Below are positions 22,249 to 41,803 of a DNA stretch of 45,607 nucleotides, piece after piece. Every line of letters begins with the position of its first letter. Position 1 is the stretch's first letter. Made by a program: the position numbers and the translations under genes. The notes beneath the pieces are model-generated. The model had not been told where the DNA came from and searched no databases. It saw only the letters and a program-made list of their open reading frames with translations. This DNA is from a virus, in IMG/VR virus record IMGVR_UViG_3300046817_001299, positions 1-45,607 of that record; one strand, written 5' to 3'.

Positions 22249-22454
22249 CGCTTCACGCACTTTCTGAAAATCGTCGTGCTCTCCGGGCAGCGCACTTCGA
22301 TGCGGTCCTCGAAATTCTGCAGATAGCATCCCCGCGGCACGAAGGCGTAAGCGTGAATGCAGCCCGGCACCTGTGCCGAATGGCCCAGTCCCGCTTTCCG
22401 CGCGGCGCATCCTGCTATCGAAAATGCCAGGGCGAGGATCATGGCTCGTCTCAA
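22245..22454 (-). CDS. Small Cys-rich lipoprotein (spanin-like position)
   Basis: A 69-aa protein if started at TTG 22454, which overlaps the upstream stop (TTGA); an ATG at 22442 gives 65 aa. The N-terminus is a lipoprotein signal with lipobox FSIAGC. The mature part contains further cysteines (PGC, RGC, VRC, RKC), probably disulfide bonded. A small outer-membrane lipoprotein next to endolysin and holin fits an outer spanin (Rz1-like). No proline-rich Rz1 signature is seen. Confidence 0.5.
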   Translation of the reverse strand: MRRAMILALAFSIAGCAARKAGLGHSAQVPGCIHAYAFVPRGCYLQNFEDRIEVRCPESTTIFRKCVKR

Positions 22455-23110
22455 TTCGCCTTTGCGGCCCCTTTCGGTGCGCTCGCCAGGTGCGCGTCCA
22501 GGTAGACCTGATACCAGTCGGTCGCGATCTCGCGTTGCGCTTCCTGCAGCTCGATCTTTCCCGCGCATACTTCGCGGTGCAGATAATTTTCCACGGCGTC
22601 TTTCTCGTGCGCTCCCGGATGCGCGTAGTAGGGTTGCGGCCAGAGGTTTTTTTCCTCGTCGGCTCCGCCAAGCTCTAGCGAAATCAGATGGTCGATCTCA
22701 TAGAGCGGCGGCTTCGGCTTCGGCCCCATTCCTTCTTCGCTCCCGAGCGTTTCGCTCTTGTCCACGCCGTAGAGCGCATAGACGTGCTTCTTCATCGATT
22801 CCGTTGTGTGGCGGAATTGTTTCGTCGATCCCCCTTCGCACACTTCTTTCTTGCTGATCGTTCGCACCGCTCCGGGCGTCAGCTCCAGGCTGTTCAGCAG
22901 CACGGTCGTTCCAGCGTGCAGCCGGTAGTGATGCTTCAGAAAAGGGTTGCCGTATTCGACGGTGATCTGCGCCGCGGCCGTCAGCGCGAAAAATCCCAGG
23001 AGGACCGCCATGAAAGAAACCGCCCGAGTTCCTCCACCTCTCGATTCACCGCTATCCGCAGCGCCAGAAACGTTTTTTGTCGCGGTCCGCAGTCTCTGCC
23101 TTCCCCACAT
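22451..23110 (-). CDS. Exported HNH-like nuclease
   Basis: A 219-aa protein starting at ATG 23110 behind AGGAGG with nine-base spacing. The N-terminus is long and basic, followed by a hydrophobic signal segment (FMAVLLGFFALTAAAQ). The C-terminal half contains YEIDHLISLELGGADEEKN followed by LWPQPY, the core of a small His-Asn-His-type endonuclease found in secreted host and phage proteins. It sits between the endolysin and the lipoprotein. It may degrade DNA at or outside the cell surface; its target is unknown. The long n-region is odd for a Sec signal, so the start could be the Met at 23011. Confidence 0.65.
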   Translation of the reverse strand: MWGRQRLRTATKNVSGAADSGESRGGGTRAVSFMAVLLGFFALTAAAQITVEYGNPFLKHHYRLHAGTTVLLNSLELTPGAVRTISKKEVCEGGSTKQFRHTTESMKKHVYALYGVDKSETLGSEEGMGPKPKPPLYEIDHLISLELGGADEEKNLWPQPYYAHPGAHEKDAVENYLHREVCAGKIELQEAQREIATDWYQVYLDAHLASAPKGAAKAN

Positions 23111-23123
23111 TGCTGCGATCCTC

Positions 23124-23609
23124 CTAAGCCTTCTTCACTGCGGAACGCTTCACGTCATAGTCCCGCAAATGAAATTCGGTGATCAGGCTCGCCAGCTCCT
23201 TCGGATAGCTCGGATCGGTCGAGTAGCCGCATTCGTAAAGCCTTGCGGCAAAGATGAAAGGGTCGTCGGCATCGGCGATGGCCGGCCGGTAGCGTCCGCT
23301 CTGCGAAAGCAGCGAAGCGTGCGCCGTGAAGCATTGCGCCTCCGTGCGGAACTTGCGGAAGCGCGCCATTTCTTTCGCGGGCAGTCCGTTGCGGAATTCT
23401 TTCGTCTGGAACTCCGCGTAGTCGTCCGCGCGCCGTGCTTTGATGCCGAAGAAGTTGTTCGCTTCCTTCGCGAGTTTCGATTCGCCCCATGCGGATTCGA
23501 GGATGGCTTGCGCGATCGTCACGCTCGCCGGCACGCCCGTTTGCGCCGCGCCCATCTGCGCTGCCGGCGCGATTCGCGCGATGAAGTCCAGCTGATCTTT
23601 GCGCTTCAT
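23124..23609 (-). CDS. Glucosaminidase-type endolysin (FlgJ/GH73-like)
   Basis: A 161-aa protein from ATG 23609. The frame stays open to 23699, but that stretch contains a hairpin and is not family-like, so I reject the extension. The catalytic core SVTIAQAILESAWGESKL has Glu38 in the conserved ESAWG motif, then NNFFGIKA and the typical YPKELASLI near the end. It cleaves the peptidoglycan glycan backbone. It lacks a signal peptide, so it relies on the holins downstream for access to the wall. Confidence 0.85.
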   Translation of the reverse strand: MKRKDQLDFIARIAPAAQMGAAQTGVPASVTIAQAILESAWGESKLAKEANNFFGIKARRADDYAEFQTKEFRNGLPAKEMARFRKFRTEAQCFTAHASLLSQSGRYRPAIADADDPFIFAARLYECGYSTDPSYPKELASLITEFHLRDYDVKRSAVKKA

Positions 23610-23619
23610 CGGGAAAAGG

Positions 23620-23647
23620 GCCGCAGCGGACTTGCGGCCGCTGCGGC
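23620..23647 (-). terminator. Candidate stem-loop terminator before the endolysin
   Basis: Perfect 10-bp arms, GCCGCAGCGG at 23620-23629 and its complement at 23638-23647, with an eight-base loop. On the minus strand the stem is followed by CCTTTTCCC. The T run is only four bases, so it may be an attenuator rather than a full terminator. It separates the regulatory genes upstream (about 23.7-25.7 kb) from the endolysin. Confidence 0.35.
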
Positions 23648-23737
23648 AGAGGCGACCATCGAGTTGGTCCAGGTCCTTCGCACAAGCGGACAATCGCATG
23701 TTGGCCGAAGAAGTTACTGTTAGATTTATTATTTTTG

Positions 23738-24007
23738 TTACTTATTTTCGGGGAAGAGCATCTTGTCGCGGCGCTCCGCGAGGAACTCCATCAGCGAGGA
23801 AAAATCGATTCTCCACCAGCCGCGGTCCGTCACGCGCCAGGCCCGCAGCTTTCCTTCTTCGCACAGGCTCTCGATCGTTCCGCGCGAGACTTTCATCAGC
23901 CGCGCCGCCGTTCCGCTCGTCACCTGCGTGGACGAAATGCTTCGCGGCGCCTCGGCCGCCGGCGTCGGCCGTTCTTCTCGCGCGAATTCGAAAAGGTTCT
24001 GCGTCAA
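23738..24007 (-). CDS. Excisionase-like HTH protein
   Basis: An 89-aa protein. No ATG occurs upstream of its conserved core, so I take the TTG at 24007, coupled to the preceding stop (TTGA). It contains the MerR/excisionase-type helix-turn-helix TSGTAARLMKVSRGTIESL followed by KLRAWRVTDRGWWRI and a helix. Proteins of this type bind DNA at phage or plasmid regulatory sites. In a transposable phage it could be a middle or late regulator. The DNA just downstream (about 23700-23737) is unusually AT-rich. Confidence 0.6.
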   Translation of the reverse strand: MTQNLFEFAREERPTPAAEAPRSISSTQVTSGTAARLMKVSRGTIESLCEEGKLRAWRVTDRGWWRIDFSSLMEFLAERRDKMLFPENK

Positions 24008-24525
24008 GCCGTGGTCCCTTCCGCGTCGCGAGTTTTTTTCTGCCGCGCCAGAAATCTTTTCAGCACCCAGATCACGCGGTTCGCGTCCGCCAGCGTGCGA
24101 ACCGTTCCGCCGCGCACCGGCGATTTGCTGGAGCGTAGAAACGCGTCGAGCCGTTCGCGGCTCCAGCCGAGCGCCGTGCAGAGATTCGCCAGCAGCTGCA
24201 ACGTGCCCGCGTCCGCCATGCGCACTTCTGCGGACTTGTCCGCGCCGCGCCGCCCGGCCGTTCCGTAGGCGTGCGCCGCCCATCGCGAAGGCCGCGTCCG
24301 GCGCAGCAGCTCCGCCGGCAGATGCTTCTGCACGGCCTCGATCGCCGTCTTGGCCTCCGTAGCCGTCAGCTCGCCGCAAGAGAGGATCTGCCGCCCGACG
24401 GCTCCGCCCACCCAGGCCAGGCGGACCTGGCGGTCCTTGGCGTCCAGGTTGGCCTGCCGGCAGAAGAGCCCCCAGAGCGTCTGGAGCCTCTTCATCTGCT
24501 TCCCGGAAATGGCCGTATCGCTCAC
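24004..24525 (-). CDS. GemA/gp16-like (DUF1018) regulatory protein
   Basis: A 173-aa protein with a GTG at 24525 coupled to the upstream stop (GTGA). The first half has the pattern of GemA-like Mu proteins: ISGKQMKRLQTLWGLFCRQ, then DRQVRLAWVGGAVGRQI and LTATEAKTAIEAVQKHL. The C-terminal half is helical and basic. GemA of Mu modulates host gene expression and DNA topology. The match is by general pattern, so I am only moderately sure. Confidence 0.5.
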   Translation of the reverse strand: MSDTAISGKQMKRLQTLWGLFCRQANLDAKDRQVRLAWVGGAVGRQILSCGELTATEAKTAIEAVQKHLPAELLRRTRPSRWAAHAYGTAGRRGADKSAEVRMADAGTLQLLANLCTALGWSRERLDAFLRSSKSPVRGGTVRTLADANRVIWVLKRFLARQKKTRDAEGTTA

Positions 24526-24827
24526 GCCTTCTCCATAGTCCTAGTACTAGCCGTCAGCCGCAGGAAAAAGAGCGGCCGCAAGGCCGCCAGGCGCCCGAGC
24601 ACATTTCGCAAGGAGCGGCTTTCTCCCGGCGGGGTGCGGGAGAACCTAGTAGAATGCGTCCGGGACGCATCGGCTCGCCTGCGTTTGCGTTTTCTGGCCA
24701 TCAGGCGCGCCTCCTCGGCGTGATGAAATCGGGCCCGGCAGCCATCCGAGCAGAACTGCTGCCACGGCCTCCTCTTATAGAAGGTTTTTCCGCAGCCCTT
24801 CCGGGCGCAGACTACCCTCGGGCTCAC
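24522..24827 (-). CDS. Small zinc-finger protein
   Basis: A 101-aa protein with a GTG at 24827 coupled to the previous stop. The N-terminus has CARKGCGKTF...FCSDGCRARF, a compact zinc knuckle of a type common in phage and plasmid genomes, followed by a run of basic residues (ARKRKRRRAD). The C-terminal third is low in recognisable features and may be a weakly constrained tail. It may bind nucleic acid. Confidence 0.55.
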   Translation of the reverse strand: MSPRVVCARKGCGKTFYKRRPWQQFCSDGCRARFHHAEEARLMARKRKRRRADASRTHSTRFSRTPPGESRSLRNVLGRLAALRPLFFLRLTASTRTMEKA

Positions 24828-25228
24828 TTCCCTTTGCCCTCGCCTTTTGCCGCCGGGGCGGCTGGCGGGATGAAGCTCCGCAGGCTCGCCTCGTATTGCC
24901 AGTCGAGCGGCACCTTGTGGTCCGTCATCCAGGCTTTCAGCTTCGCCAGTTTCAGGTCGGCCCGCTCGTGCAGCTCCGCGGCGCTCACCGGGATCTCGAC
25001 GGTCCCTTTGGCGTTCTCGATCCTCGCGATCTCCCGCTGGATCATCTGGTAGTCCGCCAGCGTTTCAAGGAAAGGCGCGTCCACGGCCACCGGCTCCGCG
25101 GCCGCTTTTTCCTGCGCCACCGGTTTCGCTTTCTCCTGCGTGTGCGCATACACGATGTGATTCCCCCAGGCCGCAGCCAGACTAAGCGCCAGCAGCGTTT
25201 CGAACTTCCAAACTCGATTTCCCGTCAT
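24824..25228 (-). CDS. Exported or membrane-anchored small protein
   Basis: A 134-aa protein starting at ATG 25228 (ATGA overlap with the LuxR-type gene). It has a basic start and a hydrophobic segment (LLALSLAAAWGNHIVYAH), then a helical acidic body and a Pro/Ala/Lys-rich tail (PPAAPAAKGEGKGK). It is either a cleaved signal peptide protein or an N-anchored periplasmic protein. It follows the regulator in the same transcript. Function unknown. Confidence 0.55.
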   Translation of the reverse strand: MTGNRVWKFETLLALSLAAAWGNHIVYAHTQEKAKPVAQEKAAAEPVAVDAPFLETLADYQMIQREIARIENAKGTVEIPVSAAELHERADLKLAKLKAWMTDHKVPLDWQYEASLRSFIPPAAPAAKGEGKGK

Positions 25229-25698
25229 CCTCGTTCCCCCTCGTGCGAATTGGACTCCAAAGTTTTTTCTCCGAGCGAAGCCATCGCCAGCTCGCCGCGT
25301 CCGCGCACTCCGAATTTCAGCAGCAGAGAGCTGACGTGGAATTTCACGGTGCGTTCGGCGATGTTCAGCCTCGCGCCGATTTCCTTGTTGCTCAGCATTT
25401 CCTCCACGCCGCGCAGCACTTGCATCTCCCTCCGCGTCAGCCGGTCTCCGCATCCCACGGCGCGCCTCGTCAGCAAAATCTCGTTCCGCGCGCGGCCCGC
25501 GATCGCCCTGGCCGCGCATATGTCCGCGTCGGCGGTCATTGTGTATTCATCAGGAGCGCGGTGCGCGGCCAGGCTGTGCATCGCCAGAAGTCCCGCCGCC
25601 CGTTCGATCGGCGGCGTTCCGTCTTCCTCGGCTTCCACGGAAAAAACCACTCTCCCTCCGTTTGAAAAATAAAATCTTTTCTTTGCGAGCGCTGGCAT
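25225..25698 (-). CDS. LuxR-family HTH transcription regulator
   Basis: A 157-aa protein starting at ATG 25698. The C-terminal third is a typical GerE/LuxR DNA-binding domain: LTRREMQVLRGVEEMLSNKE, then IGARLNIAERTVKFHVSSLL with the recognition helix. The N-terminal 80 residues are short and match no receiver or autoinducer domain. It lies within the exported-protein module with a six-base gap to the upstream gene. A LuxR-type regulator embedded in this module is unusual for a phage and suggests control tied to host physiology. Its target is unknown. Confidence 0.75.
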   Translation of the reverse strand: MPALAKKRFYFSNGGRVVFSVEAEEDGTPPIERAAGLLAMHSLAAHRAPDEYTMTADADICAARAIAGRARNEILLTRRAVGCGDRLTRREMQVLRGVEEMLSNKEIGARLNIAERTVKFHVSSLLLKFGVRGRGELAMASLGEKTLESNSHEGERG

Positions 25699-25704
25699 CG
25701 CGGC

Positions 25705-26616
25705 TTATCGCAGCGCGGTCAGGATCAGCGTCCAGTCCATCGTCACGGGGAAAGAAGCCTGGATCGAGCCCGCCGCGGCCGCGGCTTGCGAGCTCACGAG
25801 ATTGCCGTCGAGATTCGATTGCAGCGTCCACGGAGCCGCGTTGCTCACCGTTCCGCTCGCCGCGTATGCGATCACCAGCGCCGGAGCGCTCGTCGTGATG
25901 TTGCCGGTCGCGGGCGAGGCCGGCCCGCTCCAGCCATTGGCGATATCGACAGCTGTGACTCCCGTGATCGCCAGCGCGTAAGTCTCCAGCGCGCCCGTGC
26001 AGGTGATCGTCGTTGTTCCTCCGGCCGCGTTGAAAGCCACGTAGGAGGAAGCCGTCTGCGAAGTCGCTTTCGCCGTGGCCACGAGCGCGTAGGAATTCTG
26101 CGAAGTGTCGGAAGGCTTCGGCGTCGCTGTGCCCGTCGCGTAATCGCAGCCCACCCAGATCGCTTGCCCTGGAAGTGTTGCGATCGAGACCAGCGTCCCG
26201 CGCGCGGCCGCTTTCGCGGTAATCGCTGCCGGCTGCGGTGCAGGCGCTGGCGCAGGTGCGGGAGCCGGAGCTGCGGCGGCTTTCAGCGCGTCGATCTCCG
26301 TTTGCAGATTTGCCGCGGAGCTCTGCAGGTCGGCGATCTGTTTCTGCAGCGCCAGAATGCTCGCCTCATCCTGCGGAAGCTTCGCTGTCGCCGTCTGCAG
26401 ATCGCTGATCGCTTTGTTTGTGCCCAGCACGAACGCGTTCTGGCCCGCGACGGAGATCTCGATTGCTCCCGTCACGAGGTGCGCCATCACGGGATCGACG
26501 CCGTGATTCACGAGCGCCGTCTCCAGGTCATCCGCGGTTTGCGCCGTCTGCGCCTGCACGCACGCCGGAGAAGCGAGAATCAGAAGCACGAGCCCGTGCA
26601 GCAATCTCTTTTTCAT
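25705..26616 (-). CDS. Exported protein with coiled coil and AP-repeat linker
   Basis: A 303-aa protein starting at ATG 26616 (ATGA overlap). It has a signal peptide (LLHGLVLLILASPACVQAQ), a helical coiled coil at about residues 65-110 (ILALQKQIADLQSSAANLQ), a linker of repeated Ala-Pro pairs at about 112-127, and a beta-rich C-terminal domain of about 170 residues with two or more cysteines. This coil-linker-beta plan resembles a surface stalk bearing a head domain. No catalytic motif was seen. Confidence 0.6.
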   Translation of the reverse strand: MKKRLLHGLVLLILASPACVQAQTAQTADDLETALVNHGVDPVMAHLVTGAIEISVAGQNAFVLGTNKAISDLQTATAKLPQDEASILALQKQIADLQSSAANLQTEIDALKAAAAPAPAPAPAPAPQPAAITAKAAARGTLVSIATLPGQAIWVGCDYATGTATPKPSDTSQNSYALVATAKATSQTASSYVAFNAAGGTTTITCTGALETYALAITGVTAVDIANGWSGPASPATGNITTSAPALVIAYAASGTVSNAAPWTLQSNLDGNLVSSQAAAAAGSIQASFPVTMDWTLILTALR

Positions 26617-28835
26617 TTCATTCCTCCGTACGCCCCTTCGAGCTTTTCCAGCTTCTTCCGTTTATTGATGGCTGGAGCCGGCCCTCCGCCGGCTCCGGGA
26701 AGTCTCACTCCCACGGCAAGGCCCGCCCACGCGCCCACTCCGTTTGATCCGCTGGCGTTGTCGTGCGTCCAGCCGAAAGCTGTCAAGGTGTGCGTCGTGC
26801 CGTTCGTCCATGTCCCCCAGCAGTTGTTCTCATCATAAAAAGTTGGATCGCCCTCTGTGATCCAGGTGGCCGATGTCAGGATGGTATTCGTCGCCGGAGT
26901 CGAAAGCGCGGTGCAGCTCTGATTCGCTATGCCGACGACGACCACGACGAGCTCGTTGTCGCTTCCTGGCGTCCCGGAAACGCTGGTGAAAGTTCCGCCC
27001 GCTCCGCCGCTCGTCGAATCCGTTCCCGTGGCCACCGCCGCTTTGACTCCGGATCCCCCAAAGTTCGGATCCAACGGGCTGCTCGTGTCCGCGCCCGCGA
27101 TGTCGTACTCCATGAACGTATCGCCGTTGCCTCCTGAGGGGCGTGGGTGCATCGTATAGGTCAGGTTATAAATCCCCGGAGTGACGTTGTGCGCTTCCCA
27201 GATCTGGCAGACGGAGTCATTCAGCGCCGTGTTGCTGTCGATCTGCGTCAGGCCGGTCGGCCCGCCGCTGATCGAAGTGATATAAGAACACGACGAAAGG
27301 GTGTTCGGCGTGGAACATCCAGCGATGAACCCGATAATGAATTCGTTCCCGGTAATGTTCATCTGAGTCGTGAAGCTCGCAGCGGTCTCGTTGAAGGTGT
27401 TGTCGTGCTGCGCGTAGACGACGTGCGGCGATGCATACGTCGGAACGGAACCTGCGCCAGACGACTTGAACGCGAGCATCGCCCCGTTAGTCGAGGTCGC
27501 GCCCGTCATCGTGAACGTTGGCGTGAACGAAGTCGTTGTCGTGTAGACGCCGTACTGTCCGCAAGTAGGCTGACTCGTAGTCTGGATTGTTTGCGCCTCA
27601 ACCATCGTCCACGTAATGTTCGCTTGCGTCGCTGGCGTGCAAGCGGTGATATGCGCTCCGCCAAAGTCCTCCGTCGCCCAGACGAGAATGAGGTCGCCAG
27701 TCCCGAGCGTTCCGGTGGCCCCAGGAGCCACGGTTGCGCTGGTCGCGTTCGCGCAAACTCCGTGGTCAAGGGCGGCAGCCGTGGCTACATTCGCGAACTC
27801 GTACATACTGAATTGGTCGAAAGAAGAACTGCCGCCTGACCAATGGAGTTTTACCTGCCTCACTCCGCCGACGTTGTTCATCACGTAGTAGGCCACGATG
27901 AACAGTCCGTTCGGCGTATCGAGGTTCGTGCAGGCTTGCGTATAGGTGTTTCCGCCGACGTCGTCGGTGAAGGTGGCTCCCGTGAGTCCGGTCGAGCCTG
28001 CCTGCCCGAAAATGACGATCAGGTTTCCTGCGGCCGTCGGCTCGTTGAACTGGCAGAGGTAGTCTGTGCCGCCCGTGCTCCCCGTCGTTGGACAGGAGGC
28101 AGCCTGGACGAACGCCGGATTGACAATAGCCGTCGCATCCAGCTCGACGATGATGGCTCCGAATACTGATCCCGACGTGCTCCCCCAGGTCACTGTCGTT
28201 CCCGTGAATCCAGTTGCAACCGTCGCCGCTTCCTGGCCTGTCGTCGGCGTGCTATATCCGATGTCGTCCTGCTCCGTGAAGGTGCTTGGCGGCGTCAGCG
28301 TTGCCGGGCTTGTGCTGTTCCCTACGGTCCCAATGACGGGGTTTCCGGTAAGAACCGCGGCGGCGAAAGCCGGTGCTGGCGTTGCGCTCGCCGCGCCGTT
28401 GCTTGTAATCGCGCTCTGGCGAATCGCGCCAGCTCCCGTCCGCGACATTCCGGAAAGCCGCTCGACCACGATGTTCGCGCCCGTTCCGCTCGTGCTGCTG
28501 GTGAAGGTGACTGTCTCTGTCGTCGAAGCGGTCGCGAAGGAATTCGCGACGAAGCACCAAACCGAATTCGCCGAAGAGCTATAAGCCGCTGCGGCGATCT
28601 GCGACCAGCCGAGGCTCTCAACGTCCGTGACGGTCATCGTCGCGCCGGTTGTCACGCCGCTCACGCTCGCGCAAGCCACGAGCAGATCGCTCGCAGCAAC
28701 GGTGAATGTCGCCGTGGTATGCGCCGTCGAGTTCGATGTGCTCGCCGTCCCGACGCCGTGCGTCCATGTCACTCCCTGAGCGCAGCATGCGAGCAGGGCC
28801 AGCACTACGCCGAGAATCGCGCTTCGTTTGATCAC
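26613..28835 (-). CDS. Large exported beta-rich protein
   Basis: A 740-aa protein with a GTG at 28835 coupled to the upstream stop (GTGA). It has a signal peptide (ILGVVLALLACCAQGVTW). The body consists of about three successive beta-sandwich-like units, each opening with a TFTV/SFTT strand and containing patterns like NSVWCFVANSFATASTTETV, LIVIFGQAGSTGLTGATF, and ELVVVVVGIANQSCTAL. Such modules are found in secreted or surface proteins. It has little charge and abundant Ser/Thr/Gly. Function unknown. Confidence 0.6.
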   Translation of the reverse strand: MIKRSAILGVVLALLACCAQGVTWTHGVGTASTSNSTAHTTATFTVAASDLLVACASVSGVTTGATMTVTDVESLGWSQIAAAAYSSSANSVWCFVANSFATASTTETVTFTSSTSGTGANIVVERLSGMSRTGAGAIRQSAITSNGAASATPAPAFAAAVLTGNPVIGTVGNSTSPATLTPPSTFTEQDDIGYSTPTTGQEAATVATGFTGTTVTWGSTSGSVFGAIIVELDATAIVNPAFVQAASCPTTGSTGGTDYLCQFNEPTAAGNLIVIFGQAGSTGLTGATFTDDVGGNTYTQACTNLDTPNGLFIVAYYVMNNVGGVRQVKLHWSGGSSSFDQFSMYEFANVATAAALDHGVCANATSATVAPGATGTLGTGDLILVWATEDFGGAHITACTPATQANITWTMVEAQTIQTTSQPTCGQYGVYTTTTSFTPTFTMTGATSTNGAMLAFKSSGAGSVPTYASPHVVYAQHDNTFNETAASFTTQMNITGNEFIIGFIAGCSTPNTLSSCSYITSISGGPTGLTQIDSNTALNDSVCQIWEAHNVTPGIYNLTYTMHPRPSGGNGDTFMEYDIAGADTSSPLDPNFGGSGVKAAVATGTDSTSGGAGGTFTSVSGTPGSDNELVVVVVGIANQSCTALSTPATNTILTSATWITEGDPTFYDENNCWGTWTNGTTHTLTAFGWTHDNASGSNGVGAWAGLAVGVRLPGAGGGPAPAINKRKKLEKLEGAYGGMK

Positions 28836-31800
28836 GGCGTCGTCGTCTCCGCGTAGTCGAAGGTCACGTCGAAGCTTCCGCCTGTCACTGTCGCGGCGTT
28901 CAGGTTCACGGCCAGCTGCTCCGCGACCCCTCGCAGCAGAATCGGTTTCGCCGGCTTGAAAATGTAGATGTCGTTCGGTGCCGCCGTTCCCGTCGCCATG
29001 CAGCCCACGATGGCCGTGTCCACGTTTCCAACGGGCGTCCCCGCCGTCGGATTCGCCGTGTAGGTTTTCGGCACGCTCGATCCCGCGGAGAAGCCGGAAT
29101 CATCCGGGACGACGGTCATGTTCGCGGAAGTTCCCGCGGTGTCCGCCGTCGACCGCTTGATCAGCTGCAGCGTGATCAGCCCCGCGGTCGTCTGCGAGCA
29201 GCTCACCGTCACGCGGTAAACGAGCACTGTATTCGTCGCGTTGCCGGGGAGAACTGCGACGTCCGTCGCCGAAGCTGCGCTGGCCACATTCGCCGAAGCG
29301 TGATAGCTCGCCGTCGTCGTGTCCGGATAGATCTTCACGATCTGCCGGCCTGTCGCATCTCCAAGTGCACGCCGTGCGTTCGTGCCGTCGCTCAATCCTT
29401 CCATCAGCACGTTTGCGGGCACTGCCGAGCCCGGCGCCTGGTCGAAGATCGCGCCCGCATTCCCAACCACGCCGACTTTCTGCACGCCGGTCGCGGCCGT
29501 GGAAACCGCGCTGCCGCCCACTTGCGCCTCATTCACGCTCGCGTTCGCCTGGATGTTGAAGGTTCCGGTTCCGGCATTCGCCGTCACCGTTCCGCTCACG
29601 GGCTGCGTCGCCCCGCTGCCGTCCACGCGAAGCAACCCGCCGGTGCCGCAGGAAAGCGGATCCGTCTGCGCTGTCGTGTAAGTCGGCGCGGAAGTCGTCA
29701 CTGCGCATTGCGCCAGGATTCCTTTTTGCCCGGAGGTCGTCGAAGCTTGCGCCACTTCAAGTCCCGTCACGCTGGCATCCAGCGCCAGCGATCCGCTGGT
29801 CCCGATGTTGGCCGTCACCGTCCCGCTCACGGGCTGCGTGGTCGTTCCCGTCGGATCGGTGCGCACCGGATTCGTAGCTGTCGCCAGCTCCGTCCCTGCC
29901 TGATTCCGGATGTTGATGTGCAGCGCGCGATTGTTCGTGATGCGCGCGCTCGCCGCGTGTCCCGTGGTGATCGCGGTCGGTGGCGTGTCGTCGAAGAGCC
30001 CGCCCACTGGATTGATCGCCGTCGTTCCCGTCGTGAATGCGCCGTTATCCGCGAAGCCCGCGCTCGAAGAGCATCCCGAATCGCAGACGACGTGCAGGTT
30101 CGTTCCCGTCGATTGCGTCACGGTGAAATTCCCCGTGCCCGCATTCGCTGTCACCGTCCCGCTCACCGGCTGCGTCGCTCCGCTTCCATCCACTCGCAGC
30201 GCTCCTGCGGTCGTCAGGGAAAGCGGCGAGCTCTGTGCCGTCGTATAGGTCGGCGCGCTCGTCGTCACCGCGCCAAGGTCGAGAATTCCTTTCTGTCCCG
30301 ATGTCGTCGAAGCCTGTGCCACTTCGAGTCCCGTAACGCTCGCATCCAGCGCCGCGCCATTCAGCGTCCCGAGATTCGCCGTCACCGTTCCGCTGACGGG
30401 CTGCGTCGTCGTTCCCGTCGGATCCGTGCGCACCGGATCGGTGTTCGTTCCGAAGTCCACCGTCCCGCCGCTCGCGGGTTTCTTCAGCAGAGCGCCCATC
30501 ACGTATTGCGTGCCCGCGCCCGTGTCTCCGTCGAAGACGCGCGCCAGCTGCATGTTCGTGCCGTCGCTGAATCCCGCGGCCGTTCCCGTCGCCGGGATCG
30601 CCGCGCCAAAGCTTGAAGAAGTTCCGCCGGAGCCTCCGCCCGCCGCCACGTTCACTTTCAGGAATCCGCTCGCGTCCACGAGCAGCGCTTTCATGTTCGT
30701 TCCGTCGCTCGCGCCCACAGCCGTCCCAGTCGCAGGAAACGCGGCGCCGAAGGAAGACGAGGTTCCACCCGTGCCTCCGCCGATAGCCACATTCACTTTC
30801 AGGTTTCCGCTCGAGTCAAGCTGCAGGGGAAGCGTCTGTCCCGTCGAAGGCGTCGGCGCGGCGGAATTGAAAATCCCTCCGACGACTCCCGTCTTCGAAG
30901 GCGCCGTGCCAGGCGTTGTTCCGCTCATGTCGGAGCTGTCCGTCGTCAGCCACGCGGTTGTGTTCGGTGTATTGCCGGGCTGCACTGTCCACGTTCCGCT
31001 CTGCGTCGCGTTCACTGTCGGCGTTCCGGAAATCGTCACGGCGAATCCGCTCACGCCCGGCGCCACGAGCTGCTCGCCTCGCGCCGTCATCTGCGCGTCC
31101 ACGCGCTGCCCGGTCGTCACTGTCGGCTGCGTCGTGTTGAAGACGCCGCCAATCTTCAGCGGATTTCCGGAGTCGCTCGCCGCGCTCGCCGCGTTGCCTT
31201 GCGCTTTCAGGCTTCCGCCTGTCAGCGTCGCATCCAGCGCCACGCCGTTCAGCGTTCCGAGATTCGCCGTCACCGTCCCGCTCACGGGCTGCGTGGTCGT
31301 TCCCGTCGGATCGGTGCGCACCGGATTCGTAGCTGTCGCCAGCTCCGTCCCCGCCTGGTTCCGGATGTTGATATGCAGCGCGCGATTGTTCGTGATGCGC
31401 GCGCTCGCCGCATGTCCCGTGGTGATCGCTGTCGGCGGCGTGTCGTCGAAGAGGCCGCCCACCGGATTGATCGCCGTCGTTCCTGCCGTGAATGCGCCGT
31501 TATCCGCGAAGCCCGCGCTCGAAGAGCATCCCGAATCGCAAACGACGTGCAGGTTAGTTCCTGTCGATTGCGTCACGGTGAAGTTTCCCGTGCCCGCATT
31601 CGCTGTCACTGTCGGCGTCCCGGAAATCGAGACTGTCGGCGTTCCCGAAATCGTCACGGCGAATCCGCTAACTCCTGGCGCCACGAGCTGCTCGCCTCGC
31701 GCGCTCATTTGCGCGTCTACGCGCTGCCCAGTCGTCACCGTAGGCTGCGTCGTGTTGAACGTGCCGCCTATCTTTACTGGGTTCCCTGAGTCCGCCGAAG

Positions 31801-32647
31801 CGCTCGCCGCGTTGCCCACCACTTGCGCGTTCAGGTTCGAAGCTGTCGCCTGCGAGACGATCGGATCGCCCGGGATATATTTGTTCGTCGGCTGGTCGAA
31901 GATCAGGATCTGTCCGTTTGTCGGCGCTGTAGTGCTCACGCTGATCCCGCGAATCGCGATGACCGTCTGCGAAGTGGAAGTTCCGGAGAGATCGCCTCCC
32001 GCGGTAAAGCTGCCGGAGGCTGCGCTCAAGTCGCACGTCGATCGCAGGTTCAACGCGTCGTCCGTGCAGGTCACGCCCGCTCCGGTGAAGTTCAGCGCCT
32101 GCCGCGCCGGCAGCGCCGCGCCTTCGTCCTCAACCGTCGCGTAGCCGGTGTATGTTGGCGCCGTCACTCCGGAGGCTGCAAGCGTTCCCCAGTCCACGCT
32201 CGCCTGCGAAGGCAGCGTCTTGTCCTCCGTCCAGGTTATGCTTTGCACACGGCCGTCCGGCGAAGCCGCCAGCGTGATGAAGGCGCGCGTCACGAGTCCT
32301 GTCGGCGTGCAGCCGGCGTTCGGAACGAGGTTCACTCCAGCCGCCGCCGTGTAGTTGTCCACGAGCGTTCCATCGCCCGCGATCCAGCCGCGCACGCGCT
32401 GCGGGATGTAGGTGATTCCGCCGCAGAGGATCCGCGTCGGCTTGTTCCCGCTGGAGTCGAAAGGCTGGAAATCGATCGAGCCGTAGACGGGCACCGCATT
32501 GATCGTCGCGACGGCCTTCAATCCGGCTGCCGAAGGCGTCTTTCCCTCAGGAGTTTTGAACGTTCCGGTGACGTGCGGAATAGTTTGCGCTGCTGCGGTC
32601 GCGGCGAAAATTGAAGTCAAACAAAAAAGAGCCAGAAACTTCTTCAT
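28832..32647 (-). CDS. Giant repetitive exported protein
   Basis: A 1271-aa protein starting at ATG 32647. The signal peptide (FLALFCLTSIFAATAAAQ) and a GGGAGGA ribosome site choose this start over upstream in-frame codons. Residues 1-300 are non-repetitive. Most of the remainder is built of recurring units such as PVSGTVTANLGTLNG, QRVDAQMSARGEQLVAPG, and TVTQSTGTNLHVVCDSGCSS. Two near-identical 346-bp tracts lie at 29811-30156 and 31266-31611, in frame. Repetitive beta composition is fibre-like, yet the signal peptide implies export from the lysogen or infected cell. Expression may be controlled by a hairpin over the ribosome site. Confidence 0.65.
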   Translation of the reverse strand: MKKFLALFCLTSIFAATAAAQTIPHVTGTFKTPEGKTPSAAGLKAVATINAVPVYGSIDFQPFDSSGNKPTRILCGGITYIPQRVRGWIAGDGTLVDNYTAAAGVNLVPNAGCTPTGLVTRAFITLAASPDGRVQSITWTEDKTLPSQASVDWGTLAASGVTAPTYTGYATVEDEGAALPARQALNFTGAGVTCTDDALNLRSTCDLSAASGSFTAGGDLSGTSTSQTVIAIRGISVSTTAPTNGQILIFDQPTNKYIPGDPIVSQATASNLNAQVVGNAASASADSGNPVKIGGTFNTTQPTVTTGQRVDAQMSARGEQLVAPGVSGFAVTISGTPTVSISGTPTVTANAGTGNFTVTQSTGTNLHVVCDSGCSSSAGFADNGAFTAGTTAINPVGGLFDDTPPTAITTGHAASARITNNRALHINIRNQAGTELATATNPVRTDPTGTTTQPVSGTVTANLGTLNGVALDATLTGGSLKAQGNAASAASDSGNPLKIGGVFNTTQPTVTTGQRVDAQMTARGEQLVAPGVSGFAVTISGTPTVNATQSGTWTVQPGNTPNTTAWLTTDSSDMSGTTPGTAPSKTGVVGGIFNSAAPTPSTGQTLPLQLDSSGNLKVNVAIGGGTGGTSSSFGAAFPATGTAVGASDGTNMKALLVDASGFLKVNVAAGGGSGGTSSSFGAAIPATGTAAGFSDGTNMQLARVFDGDTGAGTQYVMGALLKKPASGGTVDFGTNTDPVRTDPTGTTTQPVSGTVTANLGTLNGAALDASVTGLEVAQASTTSGQKGILDLGAVTTSAPTYTTAQSSPLSLTTAGALRVDGSGATQPVSGTVTANAGTGNFTVTQSTGTNLHVVCDSGCSSSAGFADNGAFTTGTTAINPVGGLFDDTPPTAITTGHAASARITNNRALHINIRNQAGTELATATNPVRTDPTGTTTQPVSGTVTANIGTSGSLALDASVTGLEVAQASTTSGQKGILAQCAVTTSAPTYTTAQTDPLSCGTGGLLRVDGSGATQPVSGTVTANAGTGTFNIQANASVNEAQVGGSAVSTAATGVQKVGVVGNAGAIFDQAPGSAVPANVLMEGLSDGTNARRALGDATGRQIVKIYPDTTTASYHASANVASAASATDVAVLPGNATNTVLVYRVTVSCSQTTAGLITLQLIKRSTADTAGTSANMTVVPDDSGFSAGSSVPKTYTANPTAGTPVGNVDTAIVGCMATGTAAPNDIYIFKPAKPILLRGVAEQLAVNLNAATVTGGSFDVTFDYAETTTP
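29811..30156 (-). repeat. 346-bp intragenic direct repeat, copy 2
   Basis: Nearly identical, with no gaps that I could see, to 31266-31611 (constant offset 1455 bp, a multiple of three). Both encode PVSGTVTANLGT, an NPVGGLFDDTPPTAITTGHA segment and HVVCDSGCSSS in the same frame. The few differences are mostly at third codon positions. This indicates internal duplication or gene conversion under protein-level constraint. Confidence 0.75.
31266..31611 (-). repeat. 346-bp intragenic direct repeat, copy 1
   Basis: The partner of 29811-30156. In this copy the repeat is followed by two extra GTPTVSISGTPTV-type units, absent after the other copy. The paired tracts could allow homologous deletion or duplication of about 485 codons without shifting the frame. 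Confidence 0.75.
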
Positions 32648-32648
32648 C

Positions 32649-32677
32649 GGTCCTCCCGATGTGCGGTCGGAAGGACC
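32649..32677 (-). promoter_or_regulatory. Hairpin sequestering the ribosome site of the 1271-aa gene
   Basis: In minus-strand RNA, 32677-32667 (GGUCCUUCCGA) pairs with 32659-32649 (UCGGGAGGACC) over 11 bp, including one U-G wobble, with a seven-base loop. The 3' arm contains the GGGAGGA ribosome site and ends one base before the ATG. The wobble would be a C-A mismatch on the other strand, so the fold favours the sense RNA. The structure could be opened by temperature, a ligand or an upstream factor. Confidence 0.6.
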
Positions 32678-32754
32678 AACTCGATGCGTTGCCTCTATCC
32701 TATCAGGTGCTCGCTCCATCTCCCCTCAAGATGTTGCGAAAAGTGTTTTCTGCT

Positions 32755-33366
32755 TCACGCCGTAGCAGCCTGCATCCAGAGCGGCCGCCCGTTCGCGCAT
32801 TCGCGCTCATTCGGCGATGCCGGCGGAATCCCCAGCGCCTTGAAAATCTCCTCTTCGTTCTTTGCGCGGATCACGCGCGAGTTCACTGTCTTCTGCAGCA
32901 CGGGGTCGTACTGCCCCGGAACTTCCAGGCCCGTTCCGTCAGCATGCAGCCTTCCGCCGCAGGCTCGTGCCCGCGCGCACATCCAGATGTTGTGCTCCGC
33001 CGAGCCCGTTCGAATCAGCATCAGCGTCGCCCAGCTTTCCGGCGTCGCTATGTATACGTCGATCGAAATCAGCTTCGCGCCCAGCCACACGTTTCCGCGG
33101 ATCATCCGCTGGCCTTCGGAGTTCGTTTGCACAAATTGCCGTGAAAGCGCCGCGTAAAAATCCGTTTCCGCCAGCTCGCTCGTGCTTCCGAAGAGCGCGT
33201 CCTTCGATGTCATCTTCGGAATCACTACGAGGTCGATGTCTTTCACCCAGGGCTTTCCGCGCCGGATCGAGCCTGCCACTTCGATCCGCTCGCAGTGCGG
33301 CCCCAGCACCTGCGCGATTTCGAGCGCCTTTGCTCGTGCTTCGTCCAGCGGGAATCTTTGGCTCAT
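32755..33366 (-). CDS. DNA polymerase X-type nucleotidyltransferase, minimal
   Basis: A 203-aa protein starting at ATG 33366 (ATGA overlap). Its core matches the Pol X family: AGSIRRGKPWVKDIDLVVIP has the GS motif (Gly32-Ser33) and metal ligands Asp43 and Asp45, and LISIDVYIATPE has the third ligand Asp103. Then TGSAEHNIWMCARARACG and EEEIFKALGIPP match the thumb region of bacterial Pol X. The HhH 8-kDa domain and the PHP exonuclease domain of full PolX (about 570 aa) are absent. It may fill gaps or end-process during repair of transposition products, or act as a template-independent transferase. It is the last gene of the early operon. Confidence 0.75.
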   Translation of the reverse strand: MSQRFPLDEARAKALEIAQVLGPHCERIEVAGSIRRGKPWVKDIDLVVIPKMTSKDALFGSTSELAETDFYAALSRQFVQTNSEGQRMIRGNVWLGAKLISIDVYIATPESWATLMLIRTGSAEHNIWMCARARACGGRLHADGTGLEVPGQYDPVLQKTVNSRVIRAKNEEEIFKALGIPPASPNERECANGRPLWMQAATA

Positions 33367-33605
33367 TCGTCGAACTCCTCGTCCAGTTCATCGAGCTCGT
33401 TCAGGTCGTCGCCGGAGGCCGCCACTCGCGGGCATCCTGCGATCGGGCAAGCCCAGATCTTCCGTTGCGCGCGCCGTTCCTGCGTGTGCCTGGCTGCGCC
33501 TCCAGCGCTCTCGAAGGGCCGCGTCGATTCCTTCGCGATCATTTCCGTGCCGACGTGCAGCGGGCATCTTGGCCTCGCTGCGGAAGAAATGGAAGCCGCG
33601 CGCAT
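33363..33605 (-). CDS. Small acidic-tailed protein
   Basis: An 80-aa protein starting at ATG 33605 with a TGATG junction. The N-terminus is basic. A CPIAGCPRV Cys pair with upstream RRAQRKIWAC hints at a zinc knuckle, and an RPRCPLH segment adds Cys and His. It ends in a strongly acidic stretch (NELDELDEEFDE). No family recognised. Translational coupling and codon pattern support it. Confidence 0.5.
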   Translation of the reverse strand: MRAASISSAARPRCPLHVGTEMIAKESTRPFESAGGAARHTQERRAQRKIWACPIAGCPRVAASGDDLNELDELDEEFDE

Positions 33606-34108
33606 CAGTCTTTCCTCGCGCCGTAGTGTTTGCTGGCGTTCTGGATGATCACGCCGCTGCTCCACGCGGCATTGAAGGTGGGGAAGATCCACCAGATCTT
33701 GTGATCGGCTCCGTCGCGCTCCTCGATCCGCTTCACTTCGAAGGAAGGCCAGATCAGGAATCCGGTCAGCGCCTGGCGAATCACCTCGCGCTGCGTGAAG
33801 GGTCCGTAGCCTCCATCCGTGCATGGGCCGATGCCGTGGTCGCGCCGGCAGCGGCTGATTGTCGCTGTCGCCGCGATCGAGGCGCCCACGCTGATCGCCG
33901 TAGCGAGCAGGAATTTCTTGTCGAGCACGCGCTGCCGGATGCCCTGCTTCGGCGGATCCGGATTCACGTCTTTCTGCAGGCTCGGCATCGGCGGCTGCTG
34001 CAGCAGCGTGCGCGCATTCGGCCGCGGGATGTAGCGGTCCGCCAGCTCCTGCGCTCGGCTCGTCAACGCCAGCGATGCAAGCAAAAAAAACGCAGCGAGA
34101 ATTTTCAC
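33605..34108 (-). CDS. Exported protein of unknown function
   Basis: A 167-aa protein from GTG 34108, chosen because a GAAGGAGG ribosome site precedes it and because the next residues (MKILAAFFLLASLALTSRAQ) form a clean signal peptide. The Met here is the initiator read from GTG. A second hydrophobic segment (FLLATAISVGASIAATATI) lies at about residues 70-88. The C-terminal region has WWIFPTFNAAWSSGVIIQN. Its presence in the early operon is unexpected. Confidence 0.6.
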   Translation of the reverse strand: MKILAAFFLLASLALTSRAQELADRYIPRPNARTLLQQPPMPSLQKDVNPDPPKQGIRQRVLDKKFLLATAISVGASIAATATISRCRRDHGIGPCTDGGYGPFTQREVIRQALTGFLIWPSFEVKRIEERDGADHKIWWIFPTFNAAWSSGVIIQNASKHYGARKD

Positions 34109-34578
34109 GCAACCTCCTTCAGATTTTTCTCCAGCCTGCAGATGTCGCAGTTGCCGTCCCATTCGAGATGGCCCGGGTGCGCGTTGAAATGCCGCGCGTG
34201 CGCCGTGTTCCTCGCCGCGCGCCAGAGCATGAACCAGCTTCCCGCCGCGTGCCTCACTCGGCCGCCTGCCACTTCGTAGAAACGCCCGTTGTGCTCGACG
34301 AAGTGCGTCGCAGGCCACGTCCTCGGCTCCAGGTCGACTCTGTCGATTTCTTCGAACGGCCGGCGCCGGCCAAGAAACTGAATCGTCGTGTGCAGGCAGA
34401 CGTGCGGCTGCGTCCAGCTCGGCGCCTTCGTCGGGATCGGCTCGAAAACGTCCAGGCCAAACGGTCCGTCTGGACGGCGCCAGAAAGTTTCCGCCCATGA
34501 GCAGTCCGGCCGCACGATTCTTCCCGCGCGATTCGCCAGCAGCCGCTCGCATTCCCAGTGCGAGAGTCGCTCGCTCAC
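34105..34578 (-). CDS. Hypothetical early protein with C-terminal Cys motif
   Basis: A 157-aa protein with a GTG at 34578 coupled to the previous stop. It is rich in aromatic and His residues (SHWECERLLANR, THFVEHNGRFYEVAGG), with a CDICRLEKN end that may bind metal with upstream histidines (HARHFNAHPGH). No family recognised. It ends by overlapping the exported gene (GTGA). Confidence 0.5.
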   Translation of the reverse strand: MSERLSHWECERLLANRAGRIVRPDCSWAETFWRRPDGPFGLDVFEPIPTKAPSWTQPHVCLHTTIQFLGRRRPFEEIDRVDLEPRTWPATHFVEHNGRFYEVAGGRVRHAAGSWFMLWRAARNTAHARHFNAHPGHLEWDGNCDICRLEKNLKEVA

Positions 34579-38729: not shown

Positions 38730-39749
38730 TCACGCCACGTTCTCCGCGAGAACGGACTTCACGTTCTTTTTCTGTTGCCGGATGTATTCGAGCAGCCGCC
38801 TGCTCGAAAAATAAGGCCGCGGCGGATTCGCGTAGGCGTCCGTCACCGTGCAGCGCTTCAGGCAAAGCTCCTGCTGCGCCTCGCTCAGCTTCGCTGGCTT
38901 GCCGTTTCCAAAGGCGCGCGCCGCGATTGTCAGCGCCTCGTCTTTCGTCATCCCTTCCAGCTGAATCCGGTAGCTGATCCGCGAGAGCCATTGTTCAAGG
39001 CTCGACCTCCGCGTGATGCTTTCGAAGTCGCGGTGCAGGTTGTGCGATCCGGCCAGCACGATGCCGCAGCCCTTTCGCCCGGCGCGTTTTGTGCGGTCGT
39101 GCAGCTCGCGGATCGTTTCCAGCGTCTCGACCGAAAGGTGCTGGGCCTCGTCGAAGATCAGCGCCGGCGGCGTCTTCCGCGAAACGAATTCCGTCCGCAG
39201 CGCCTGCATATAGGGCTGGTAGTAGTTCGATCGCAGCCAGACTTGCGAAGCGCGCGCGATCTCGCGCAGCACGGCCGTAGGCGTCATGCGCGGCCCGCAG
39301 TAGATGTAGATCGCTTCCTGTCCTGCCTCTCGGAATTGCGCGCAGAGATTCTCCAGCACGAAGGACTTCTCGCTCGATGGCGGGCCATAGAGGATCGAGA
39401 TCGCGCCTTCGTCGATCGCTTCTTCCAGGCATTCGCGGATCTTGCGGTAGCCGCGCGTTTCGAGCAGTTCCGCGGCTTCGTGCGCTTCCTCTTTCGGCCA
39501 TCTCGCGCTGATGAAGGGCCAGAGGCGCGCGGAAATGAAGTGCGTGTCGCGTTTTCCGCCCAGCTCGCCATAGCGCCCGGAAAGAAAAAGCCGCACTGTC
39601 GATTCTCCGACGCTCAGCCGCGCCGCCAGGTCCTGCGGCCCGATCCCCGTCCGCGCCATCCATTCATTGGCCTTCGCGGCCACCGTCTGGTAGTCCGGCG
39701 TCTCGATCTGCCTCAGCTCTCGGAGCTGCTCCGTTGGCGTCCGCGACAT
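38730..39749 (-). CDS. MuB-like AAA+ ATPase, transposition target selector
   Basis: A 339-aa protein starting at ATG 39749, two bases after the transposase stop. It has an N-terminal HTH-like region (about 30-60, GPQDLAARLSVGESTVRLFL), as in MuB, then the AAA+ domain. The P-loop position reads YGPPSSEKS (122-129) with Glu127 where Gly is usual. Walker B is ALIFDEAQH (Asp200, Glu201) and the sensor-like region is GIVLAGSHNL. MuB polymerises on target DNA with ATP, delivers targets to MuA and confers target immunity. Gene order and size match MuB (312 aa). Confidence 0.85.
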   Translation of the reverse strand: MSRTPTEQLRELRQIETPDYQTVAAKANEWMARTGIGPQDLAARLSVGESTVRLFLSGRYGELGGKRDTHFISARLWPFISARWPKEEAHEAAELLETRGYRKIRECLEEAIDEGAISILYGPPSSEKSFVLENLCAQFREAGQEAIYIYCGPRMTPTAVLREIARASQVWLRSNYYQPYMQALRTEFVSRKTPPALIFDEAQHLSVETLETIRELHDRTKRAGRKGCGIVLAGSHNLHRDFESITRRSSLEQWLSRISYRIQLEGMTKDEALTIAARAFGNGKPAKLSEAQQELCLKRCTVTDAYANPPRPYFSSRRLLEYIRQQKKNVKSVLAENVA

Positions 39750-39751
39750 TC

Positions 39752-41803
39752 TTATTCCCCGATCTCGATCTTCTGGAAAACGTCCGCATCCTGCGCCACC
39801 GCGTCAGAGACAAATGTCGGCGCGATTTCTCTCGGCCGCCTTGCTGGCGCGTTGACTGGCGAAGACTCGGCGCGAGCTCCCGGCACGGCTGCCGGTAACA
39901 AGCGCCCGTCTGTTCCTGTGCGCGCCAGCGCTCGCTCCACCAGCGCTTCGCGCTCCGTTTTCCATCCCTGATTCGCGGCCAATGCGGAGAGCGCCGCCAG
40001 ATATTCCGCGTAGCCCTTTCGCAGGGACCGCTCTCGGCGCATCGCCGCCTTGATCTGGTCGCGCGTGATCTGTCCATTCGGGCATTGCGCGATGAATTGC
40101 TGCATGCGCAGTTCGCCGATGAATTGCAGCGTCTCGGCGTCCGCGGCCACTGCCTCACCCAGGTTGTAGGGATCGCGAAGGATGGCCACCTCGCGGCCCT
40201 GCCTCGTGTCCAGCGCGAAGAGGCTTTCGTCCGTCGGCTCGTAACGCATCCCGTCGAGCTGCACGCAGCCGCCTTTTTGCACGATTCGCTTCGTCCGCTC
40301 GGAAAAAAGAATGTCCAGCAGCCGCGGATTGATCCTTGGCCGGTTGCGCTCGGGATGAGCGTCTTCCATCACTTCATTCGGCGTGCGGTGATCCAGCGAC
40401 TCCAGCCGCGTGTCGTTGTACTCCTCGATCCACTGCACGGTCGCGACGATGAACTCCGCATCCGTCGGCAGCGGACTTTCGCCACGCTTCCCCGCCAGAT
40501 ATTTCGCGTGCTGTTTTTGCGATTCGTCCGCGTCTTCCGGCCGGTTTCCCGGTGCGTTGCCCACGTAAGCCGGCCGCCAGATCACATCGAAGCGCTTGGA
40601 CCATCGTGCGAACCAGGATTCGATCGGCTTCGAGCGCGGCCGCTTCGGAATCGCGCTCGTGATGCCGATGCGGTTTCGGTCGAGCAGGGACTGCGCTTCC
40701 TCGGAAAGCGTGATCAGCTCCAGGTCCGCGCGCACGCTCCTGTAATCCTTGCCGTTGTCCCAGTAGAAGTTTGCGGGGAAGCCGTGCGAGAGCACAGCCA
40801 TGCGGATCGCGGAGTTGATCGTCCGCTTTGAAGGATTCGGCGCCAGGCAGAAGCCCACAATCTTCCTCGAGCCCCAGTCATAGAGAGCGGTCAGCCAGAG
40901 CCGGTAAGCCTGGTCCTGTTTCATTTCTCCGAAGAGCGTGTTCCGGACGAGCACGTCGAATTCGCGGTGGTCGCTCACCCACCAGTCCATCACCGGCACT
41001 TTGCTTCGCTGGATGAACGGCGAGCAGAGCCGCTCGTGGGTTTCTTTGCCGTCGCGCGAGAGCACTTTCAGCGATTCCGCCAGCGCGTTCAGGAAATTTC
41101 GCGCGGTGTCATAGCAAGGTGCTTCGCCTTTCTCGCCGATCTTCCTCCATTCGCGGCAGAGCGCTTCCCAGGCCATTTCGCGAGAGAGCCCTTCGTGCAG
41201 GAATTTCTGCTGGAGGAAAGTCGCGGCCGCGGCATGGTCCTCGAAGAAACGCGATTGCCCTTTGTCCTTGCGCGGGCGGTCCGAAAGCGCGGAATAGCCG
41301 TGGCAATCGAAGCGATCGAGCCAGCGGAAGAGCGTCCTCGAAGAAATCGGAGGCTTTTGTTGCGCCGCGATGTACTCCGCCAGGTCAGCGAGCGTGTCCA
41401 CCGTTCTGCCGTCAGCAAGCCGGATCGTCGGCCGGTGGCCGTTCGTTCGCGCGCGAAAATCCAGCAGCGGCTCGATCGCTCTCAGCCGCGCTCGCGCCTG
41501 GTCTTCCAGGTCCTCCGGGATTGCAACGCGCGGCGAAGAGGGGAGAAGCGGAGCAGACGCAAACAGGGGCATCGTCTGCTCCGCGGCGGGGACTACGAGA
41601 AGGCCTTTTTTCATTTCCGCGGCGAACTTCGCCTGCGCGTCCGCCGGCAGCGTGCTCACCAGATATTCGCGCTGCTGCTTTCCGTTGCGCGCGCGCACCT
41701 CGGAATTTCTAGCCGTCCATCCGCGCGATATTCTGCGAACGTGCCGTTCCGTGAAGCCCGTCAGCGCGCACACTTTCTCCATCGTCAGCCAGGCCTCACC
41801 CAT
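39752..41803 (-). CDS. Mu-like DDE transposase (MuA-like)
   Basis: A 683-aa protein starting at ATG 41803, overlapping the membrane-protein gene by eight bases. An N-terminal Mu DNA-binding HTH (AWLTMEKVCALTGFTERHVR) and the FRWLDRFDCHGYSALSDR linker precede the RNase H-fold core. The catalytic triad is assigned to Asp278 (WWVSDHREFD), Asp349 (FYWDNGKDYRS) and Glu395 (SKPIESWF). A beta-barrel-like region, a DTRQGREVAILRDPYNLG segment and basic C-terminal helices follow. MuA is 663 aa. The enzyme should cut and join the phage ends for integration and replicative transposition. Confidence 0.9.
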   Translation of the reverse strand: MGEAWLTMEKVCALTGFTERHVRRISRGWTARNSEVRARNGKQQREYLVSTLPADAQAKFAAEMKKGLLVVPAAEQTMPLFASAPLLPSSPRVAIPEDLEDQARARLRAIEPLLDFRARTNGHRPTIRLADGRTVDTLADLAEYIAAQQKPPISSRTLFRWLDRFDCHGYSALSDRPRKDKGQSRFFEDHAAAATFLQQKFLHEGLSREMAWEALCREWRKIGEKGEAPCYDTARNFLNALAESLKVLSRDGKETHERLCSPFIQRSKVPVMDWWVSDHREFDVLVRNTLFGEMKQDQAYRLWLTALYDWGSRKIVGFCLAPNPSKRTINSAIRMAVLSHGFPANFYWDNGKDYRSVRADLELITLSEEAQSLLDRNRIGITSAIPKRPRSKPIESWFARWSKRFDVIWRPAYVGNAPGNRPEDADESQKQHAKYLAGKRGESPLPTDAEFIVATVQWIEEYNDTRLESLDHRTPNEVMEDAHPERNRPRINPRLLDILFSERTKRIVQKGGCVQLDGMRYEPTDESLFALDTRQGREVAILRDPYNLGEAVAADAETLQFIGELRMQQFIAQCPNGQITRDQIKAAMRRERSLRKGYAEYLAALSALAANQGWKTEREALVERALARTGTDGRLLPAAVPGARAESSPVNAPARRPREIAPTFVSDAVAQDADVFQKIEIGE

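Follow-up and report, generated by a model that had tools for sequence, protein, structure and literature searches.

The prevailing view is that tailed phages make and assemble their virion proteins in the cytoplasm, and we know of no phage particle protein that needs export. Loading of proteins onto particles that are already assembled is chemically possible, as T4 Soc and Hoc illustrate. Other phage products do leave the cytoplasm. For instance, lambda Lom and Bor are lysogenic conversion (moron) genes for exported proteins. In addition, the tail-type proteins PblA and PblB of the Streptococcus mitis prophage SM1 are also adhesins outside the cell, and their release needs the phage holin and lysin (PMC7600539).

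In this study, we analysed a block of genes at 24824-32647 on the minus strand of a Mu-like phage, for which an exported fibre/adhesin module is the best explanation. Furthermore, matching blocks were found in many unrelated uncultured tailed phages (soil phages), suggesting that some phages export fibre-type proteins. The literature searched, which covered few subscription journals, contained no description of signal-peptide fibre modules, in agreement with the first-pass annotation, which knew of no described system of this composition.

The block and its Mu-like phage

The window, that is, the whole stretch of DNA that was analysed, comprises the 45,607 bases of one virus record, with minus-strand genes in a Mu-like layout. 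The order runs from MuA (39752-41803; PHROG transposase, 1.7e-82) and MuB (38730-39749; PHROG transposition protein, 8.6e-37) through small genes, the exported-protein block, a zinc-finger-like gene and a small HTH gene to a glucosaminidase endolysin (23124-23699, minus strand), a holin, terminase, portal, head genes, a tape measure and finally a conventional tail-fibre/host-specificity gene (533-3238, minus strand). The portal, protease/major head and head morphogenesis families were all matched, and TerL is 28% identical to that of Pseudomonas phage B3 over 80%. Judged by its genes, which include both the transposition set and the terminase, portal and head set, the window phage is a B3-type Mu-like phage. 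A GemA label for 24004-24525 was a reading by eye and was given up, because Pfam and PHROGs gave it no support.

The block holds five neighbouring genes. The most upstream encodes SP1271 (28832-32647; 1271 aa, or 1295 aa from an in-frame ATG that is also present 24 codons upstream), which includes a signal peptide (32588-32647; MKKFLALFCLTSIFAATAAA, cleaved before Q), an N-terminal domain with conserved cysteines (32018-32587), VSGTVTAN/NPVRTDPTGTTTQ repeats and a C-terminal jelly-roll domain with a Cys pair (28835-29335). It is followed by SP740 (26613-28835; 740 aa, GTG start), a putative exported protein of the second-gene family described below with a conserved basic C-terminal tail (26616-26672; AINKRKKLEKLE), and by SP303 (25705-26616; 303 aa), with a signal peptide, a coiled coil and a C-terminal domain. 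Then come a GerE/LuxR-type HTH protein of 157 aa (25225-25698), conserved in the Mu-like sisters, and SP134 (24824-25228; 134 aa), a putative exported protein of helical type without cysteines that is conserved only in these sisters. Genes overlap by 4 bases at the 1271/740, 740/303 and LuxR/134 junctions, and the gap between 303 and LuxR is 6 bases.

Signal peptides were called by a home-made von Heijne-type rule (n-h-c structure plus cleavage site). By this rule, a signal peptide stands at the annotated start of exactly SP1271, SP740, SP303 and SP134 in the block, with predicted cleavage at ATAAA/QTIPHV, LLACCA/QGVTWT, PACVQA/QTAQTA and HIVYA/HTQEKA, respectively. Under the same rule, the LuxR, terminase, portal, tape-measure and tail-tip genes have no signal peptide at their first start. 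Since 49 of 635 ORFs of at least 150 aa score as signal-bearing in related loci, four signal peptides among five neighbouring genes are not chance. The open reading frames and the signal rule thus confirm, at the coordinates given, what the first-pass annotation had described, namely four signal-peptide genes in coupled order with a LuxR-type gene embedded among them; this gene lies between the third and the fourth. Searches for relatives of the single proteins gave little: none were found for SP303 in viral contigs or phage records or for SP740 in phage records, PHROGs and Pfam returned nothing usable for SP1271, SP740 and SP134, and AlphaFold modelled the last unit of SP740 poorly (pLDDT 49).

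Close relatives of the phage were found via terminase, and two of them are long records (G001, 38.9 kb; G002, 45.1 kb). Both have, in order, a 1271-type gene, other signal-peptide genes including a 740-type gene, LuxR, a 134-type gene and further shared genes, and the set does recur as a unit in other Mu-like phages. The 1271-type genes are 71% (G001) and 67% (G002) identical over the first ~200 residues, and the G001 counterpart has the identical mature start QTIPHV (L034). Among the collections scanned, the N-terminal domain of SP1271 was found only in this Mu-like group. Meanwhile, the C-terminal parts of the 1271-type proteins vary, and G002 has a different end. On the sequences compared, the N-terminal domain is confined to the phage lineage, and the C-terminal parts recur in other lineages or, as in G002, are swapped.

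Several other minus-strand genes of the window deserve mention. Upstream of the block, 32755-33366 encodes a PolX-like protein that is kept in G001 and whose DNA polymerase beta thumb domain scored 39.9 bits against a cut-off of 25. Upstream of this gene lies a further signal-peptide protein (33605-34162; cleavage between LALTSRA and QELADRY). The 219 aa protein at 22451-23110, conserved in both sister phages (65% and 53%), has an internal signal-like stretch (LTAAAQITVEYG) and an HNH-like motif (YEIDHLISLELGGADEEKNLWPQ) that was read by eye and is without a Pfam match; it is possibly an exported nuclease. In addition, a beta-rich protein of 136 aa (12201-12611), 49-73% conserved in the sisters, adjoins the major head gene and might be an ordinary head-decoration protein.

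Related modules in unrelated phages

Scans recovered the C-terminal domain of SP1271 in ~60 uncultured phage contigs, and about half of these genes carry a signal peptide. No isolate phage matched this domain, and it was present in 1 of the 396 Acidobacteriota genomes searched, a gp2 MAG (L030). A TonB-like flank protein had matches through its common domain only, which gave no host pointer.

The gene that follows is signal-bearing for 20 of the 26 signal-bearing homologues versus none of the 24 signal-less ones (p=5e-9). This second signal-peptide gene is usually joined to the first by start/stop overlap or abutment, and it often belongs to the 740 family. Relatives of SP740 were reached only through family chaining among the second genes; the family is only ~18% identical to SP740, yet it has the basic C-terminal tail in common. 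The short tail, NKRxKLExL(D/E), is seen at the C-termini of the second-gene proteins of L021-L041 and of SP740, which are otherwise divergent exported proteins. Sorting of the PEP-CTERM type was considered and rejected on reading the sequences, because no membrane helix precedes the basic tail of the SP740 relatives. The signal-less counterparts end in LGVG-type tails, and the form LLGVGP ends one signal-less protein (L006) as well as a signal-bearing lectin-like protein of the podovirus ctLwi270 (MW202554). The latter has a complete circular genome, in which three consecutive signal-peptide genes, one of them unannotated, lie directly after the portal gene (L113, 14692-18597).

Signal-less homologues adjoin terminase genes. 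In contigs of sipho-, podo- and myovirus-like phages, the signal-bearing module has capsid-side genes on one side and tail genes on the other; the genes there were identified by eye, on the basis of their sequence and order. Companion genes encode an apiosidase-like glycosidase with Collagen_bind_2, a signal-bearing protein of 532 aa that the G002 module adds (L098, 15556-17154), a beta-helix protein (L009), and proteins with kelch plus Ig-like domains (L023, L025).

The signal peptide goes together with cysteines. At least two cysteines are present in the C-terminal domain of 24 of the 28 signal-bearing proteins versus 3 of the 29 signal-less ones (Fisher p=6e-9, without tree correction), and most signal-less domains have no cysteines. 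In divergent lineages the cysteines lie elsewhere in the domain but again number two. Furthermore, one copy of an internal repeat of SP1271 has both cysteines and one has neither, and no single-cysteine copy occurred among the 16 repeat copies examined. On the tree, six changes of signal-peptide state are needed, two of them forced, and because these are few independent events the above P value is not to be read as tree-corrected. A sign test on the tree that compared signal peptide with cysteines had 2 pairs only and was uninformative, and the whole-protein cysteine content of the repeat proteins gave p=0.25 with few proteins.

Proteins that fold outside the cytoplasm can use disulfides, and export looks real because the signal-bearing domains nearly always carry two cysteines. 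We consider it likely that the four proteins of the block are exported via their predicted Sec signal peptides, and the first-pass claim of export looks true on the signal peptides and the paired cysteines. Conversely, the N-terminal hydrophobic stretches might not be working signal peptides, and the proteins would then be ordinary cytoplasmic virion proteins. The heuristic nature of the prediction and the existence of signal-less homologues speak for this reading, but the n-h-c structure and the A/Q-type cleavage site are consistent across many phages and the link to paired cysteines is strong, which makes it very improbable.

Regulation and timing of the module

The LuxR-type protein matched Pfam GerE at 62.3 bits (cut-off 23.5), and no Pfam match, hence no sensor domain of the autoinducer or receiver kind, was found in its residues 1-84. 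In the module loci examined, its relatives occurred only in the Mu-like sisters and at one other locus (L038). Likewise, relatives of SP134 accompany the module only in the Mu-like group. Dedicated control by LuxR, which had been proposed at first, is thus not a property of the module, and the small protein is more likely a middle/late regulator of the phage than a private regulator of the module.

An RNA hairpin with a 14-bp stem (~32646-32680, minus strand) is predicted over the Shine-Dalgarno sequence and start codon of SP1271. At -22.4 kcal/mol (z -3.7), it was the strongest among the 21 start regions tested. In G001 a stem of different sequence stands at the same place (-17.8, z -2.4); the stem is kept while the sequence differs, which implies compensating changes. 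No such hairpin was found in G002 or upstream of the module genes of unrelated phages. The translational control proposed earlier for SP1271 is therefore plausible, with a start-masking stem that has a counterpart in G001, and in the Mu-like group this hairpin would hold back SP1271 translation. In phage Mu, the zinc-finger protein Com opens a start-masking hairpin. A Cys-rich zinc-finger-like motif (CARKGCGKTFYKRRPWQQFCSDGC) is present in the protein encoded at 24522-24827 on the minus strand, which is conserved in G001. That this protein might be linked to the SP1271 hairpin is only an idea by analogy.

The block had initially been taken for an operon of lysogeny or early infection. As a lysogenic-conversion operon, it would make prophage surface proteins in the lysogen under LuxR control. 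In favour of this, the phage has MuA and MuB, and the Mu-like module is separate from the head-tail genes and comes with a start hairpin of its own and a gene of LuxR type. However, its relatives sit in structural clusters alongside genes for capsid and tail, the module occurs elsewhere mostly without LuxR, and a tyrosine integrase was found in only 2 of the 16 module records, a weak count given that many records are fragments. We regard lysogenic conversion as improbable. The structural-gene placement and the integrase count, with the same reservation about fragments, lead us to favour a late role linked to the particle or to lysis over a lysogeny operon. Since the Mu-like module itself sits between early-type genes and lysis genes, we infer its late timing from the other phages.

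Site of action and comparison with known systems

The model of the SP1271 tip domain is a confident jelly roll (pLDDT 88, pTM 0.85). Its solved neighbours include the HFTV1 turret (Z 8.2), the KHP40 cement protein (Z 7.9) and the phage 7-7-1 tail fibre (Z 7.3), within a best range of 6-8.6 to many jelly rolls in general, a level of Z that stands for common folds. The predicted viral neighbours are uncharacterised tailed-phage proteins, and a Foldseek search of the tip domain against the PDB gave no E below 1e-3. SP1271 is best explained as a fibre-type protein with a lineage-specific N-terminal domain, a beta-repeat shaft and a predicted jelly-roll tip. Similarly, the best explanation for SP740 is a companion protein, apparently beta-rich, with the conserved basic C-terminal tail.

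From the gene data, the best reading is that these proteins would end up on particles or on the cell surface at lysis. We tentatively favour the first destination, although we rate it somewhat below an even chance: fibre or decoration proteins would pass through Sec, fold outside and load on particles when lysis mixes the compartments. The proteins would be made late, cross the membrane via Sec, and then fold and form disulfides in the periplasm. Lysis would mix the cytoplasmic virions with the periplasm, and the exported proteins could then decorate the new particles as added adhesive fibres or as fibres that bind receptors or polysaccharide. Support comes from the signal-less homologues beside terminase, the jelly-roll tip, the lineage-specific N-terminal domain and the structural-gene placement. 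Furthermore, the LLGVGP tail is shared by the signal-less L006 protein and the signal-bearing ctLwi270 protein. Against particle loading, normal assembly in the cytoplasm is closed to exported proteins, a conventional tail-fibre/host-specificity gene is still present in the phage, the companion genes resemble those for secreted enzymes or for surface proteins of host type, and the searches turned up no cultured relative.

The main rival is that the proteins are exported but act off the particle around the time of lysis, whether within the periplasm, at the outer surface or in the surrounding medium. There they could remove or bind polysaccharide at the cell surface, cover receptors and so hinder superinfection or re-adsorption to debris, or aid release. 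We think this quite possible and rate it slightly below particle loading. The signal peptides and Cys pairs would suit it equally, as would the secreted-enzyme and host-type companions and the presence of a normal tail-tip/host-specificity gene. It is less easily reconciled with homology and a fold of the virion appendage type, with an N-terminal domain specific to the lineage, or with placement within structural gene clusters. The first-pass annotation had set its exported operon against virion fibre proteins. That alternative comes partly into play with the signal-less homologues in structural clusters and with the jelly-roll tip, whose predicted fold resembles those of phage turrets, cement proteins and fibre tips. 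Moreover, fibre and decoration proteins are expected to be cytoplasmic and free of signal peptides, whereas all four proteins of the block carry one.

More broadly, a group of tailed phages may build part of the virion outside the cytoplasm, with Sec-exported fibres, periplasmic disulfides and loading only at lysis guided by C-terminal tail peptides, while signal-less forms are cytoplasmic elsewhere. We put this forward as a possibility on the doubtful side. If exported fibres do reach particles, they would represent a second, extracytoplasmic assembly step that nobody has described. If instead they work in the medium or at the cell surface, a secreted adhesin/enzyme kit for use around lysis would be common to phages of widely differing morphotypes. 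Under either reading, a natural experiment is already at hand, since members of a single protein family differ in whether they carry a signal peptide.

Compared with Pseudomonas phage B3, the window phage has transposition genes, terminase and head-tail order in common. However, the annotated B3 genome is without a comparable block of long exported-protein genes in the early region or before lysis. The predicted tip fold is similar to those of the HFTV1 turret, the KHP40 cement protein and the Agrobacterium phage 7-7-1 tail fibre (Z 7.3-8.2), and homologues of the present proteins sit among virion structural genes, as do phage decoration, turret and fibre proteins. Unlike these, the present proteins have predicted Sec signal peptides and disulfide-type Cys pairs. 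PblA and PblB differ from the present module in hosts and domains, and the proteins of the block each come with a signal peptide of their own. Finally, Lom and Bor likewise are phage genes for exported proteins, but the module described here is a multi-gene, fibre-like set that lies among structural genes in many phages.
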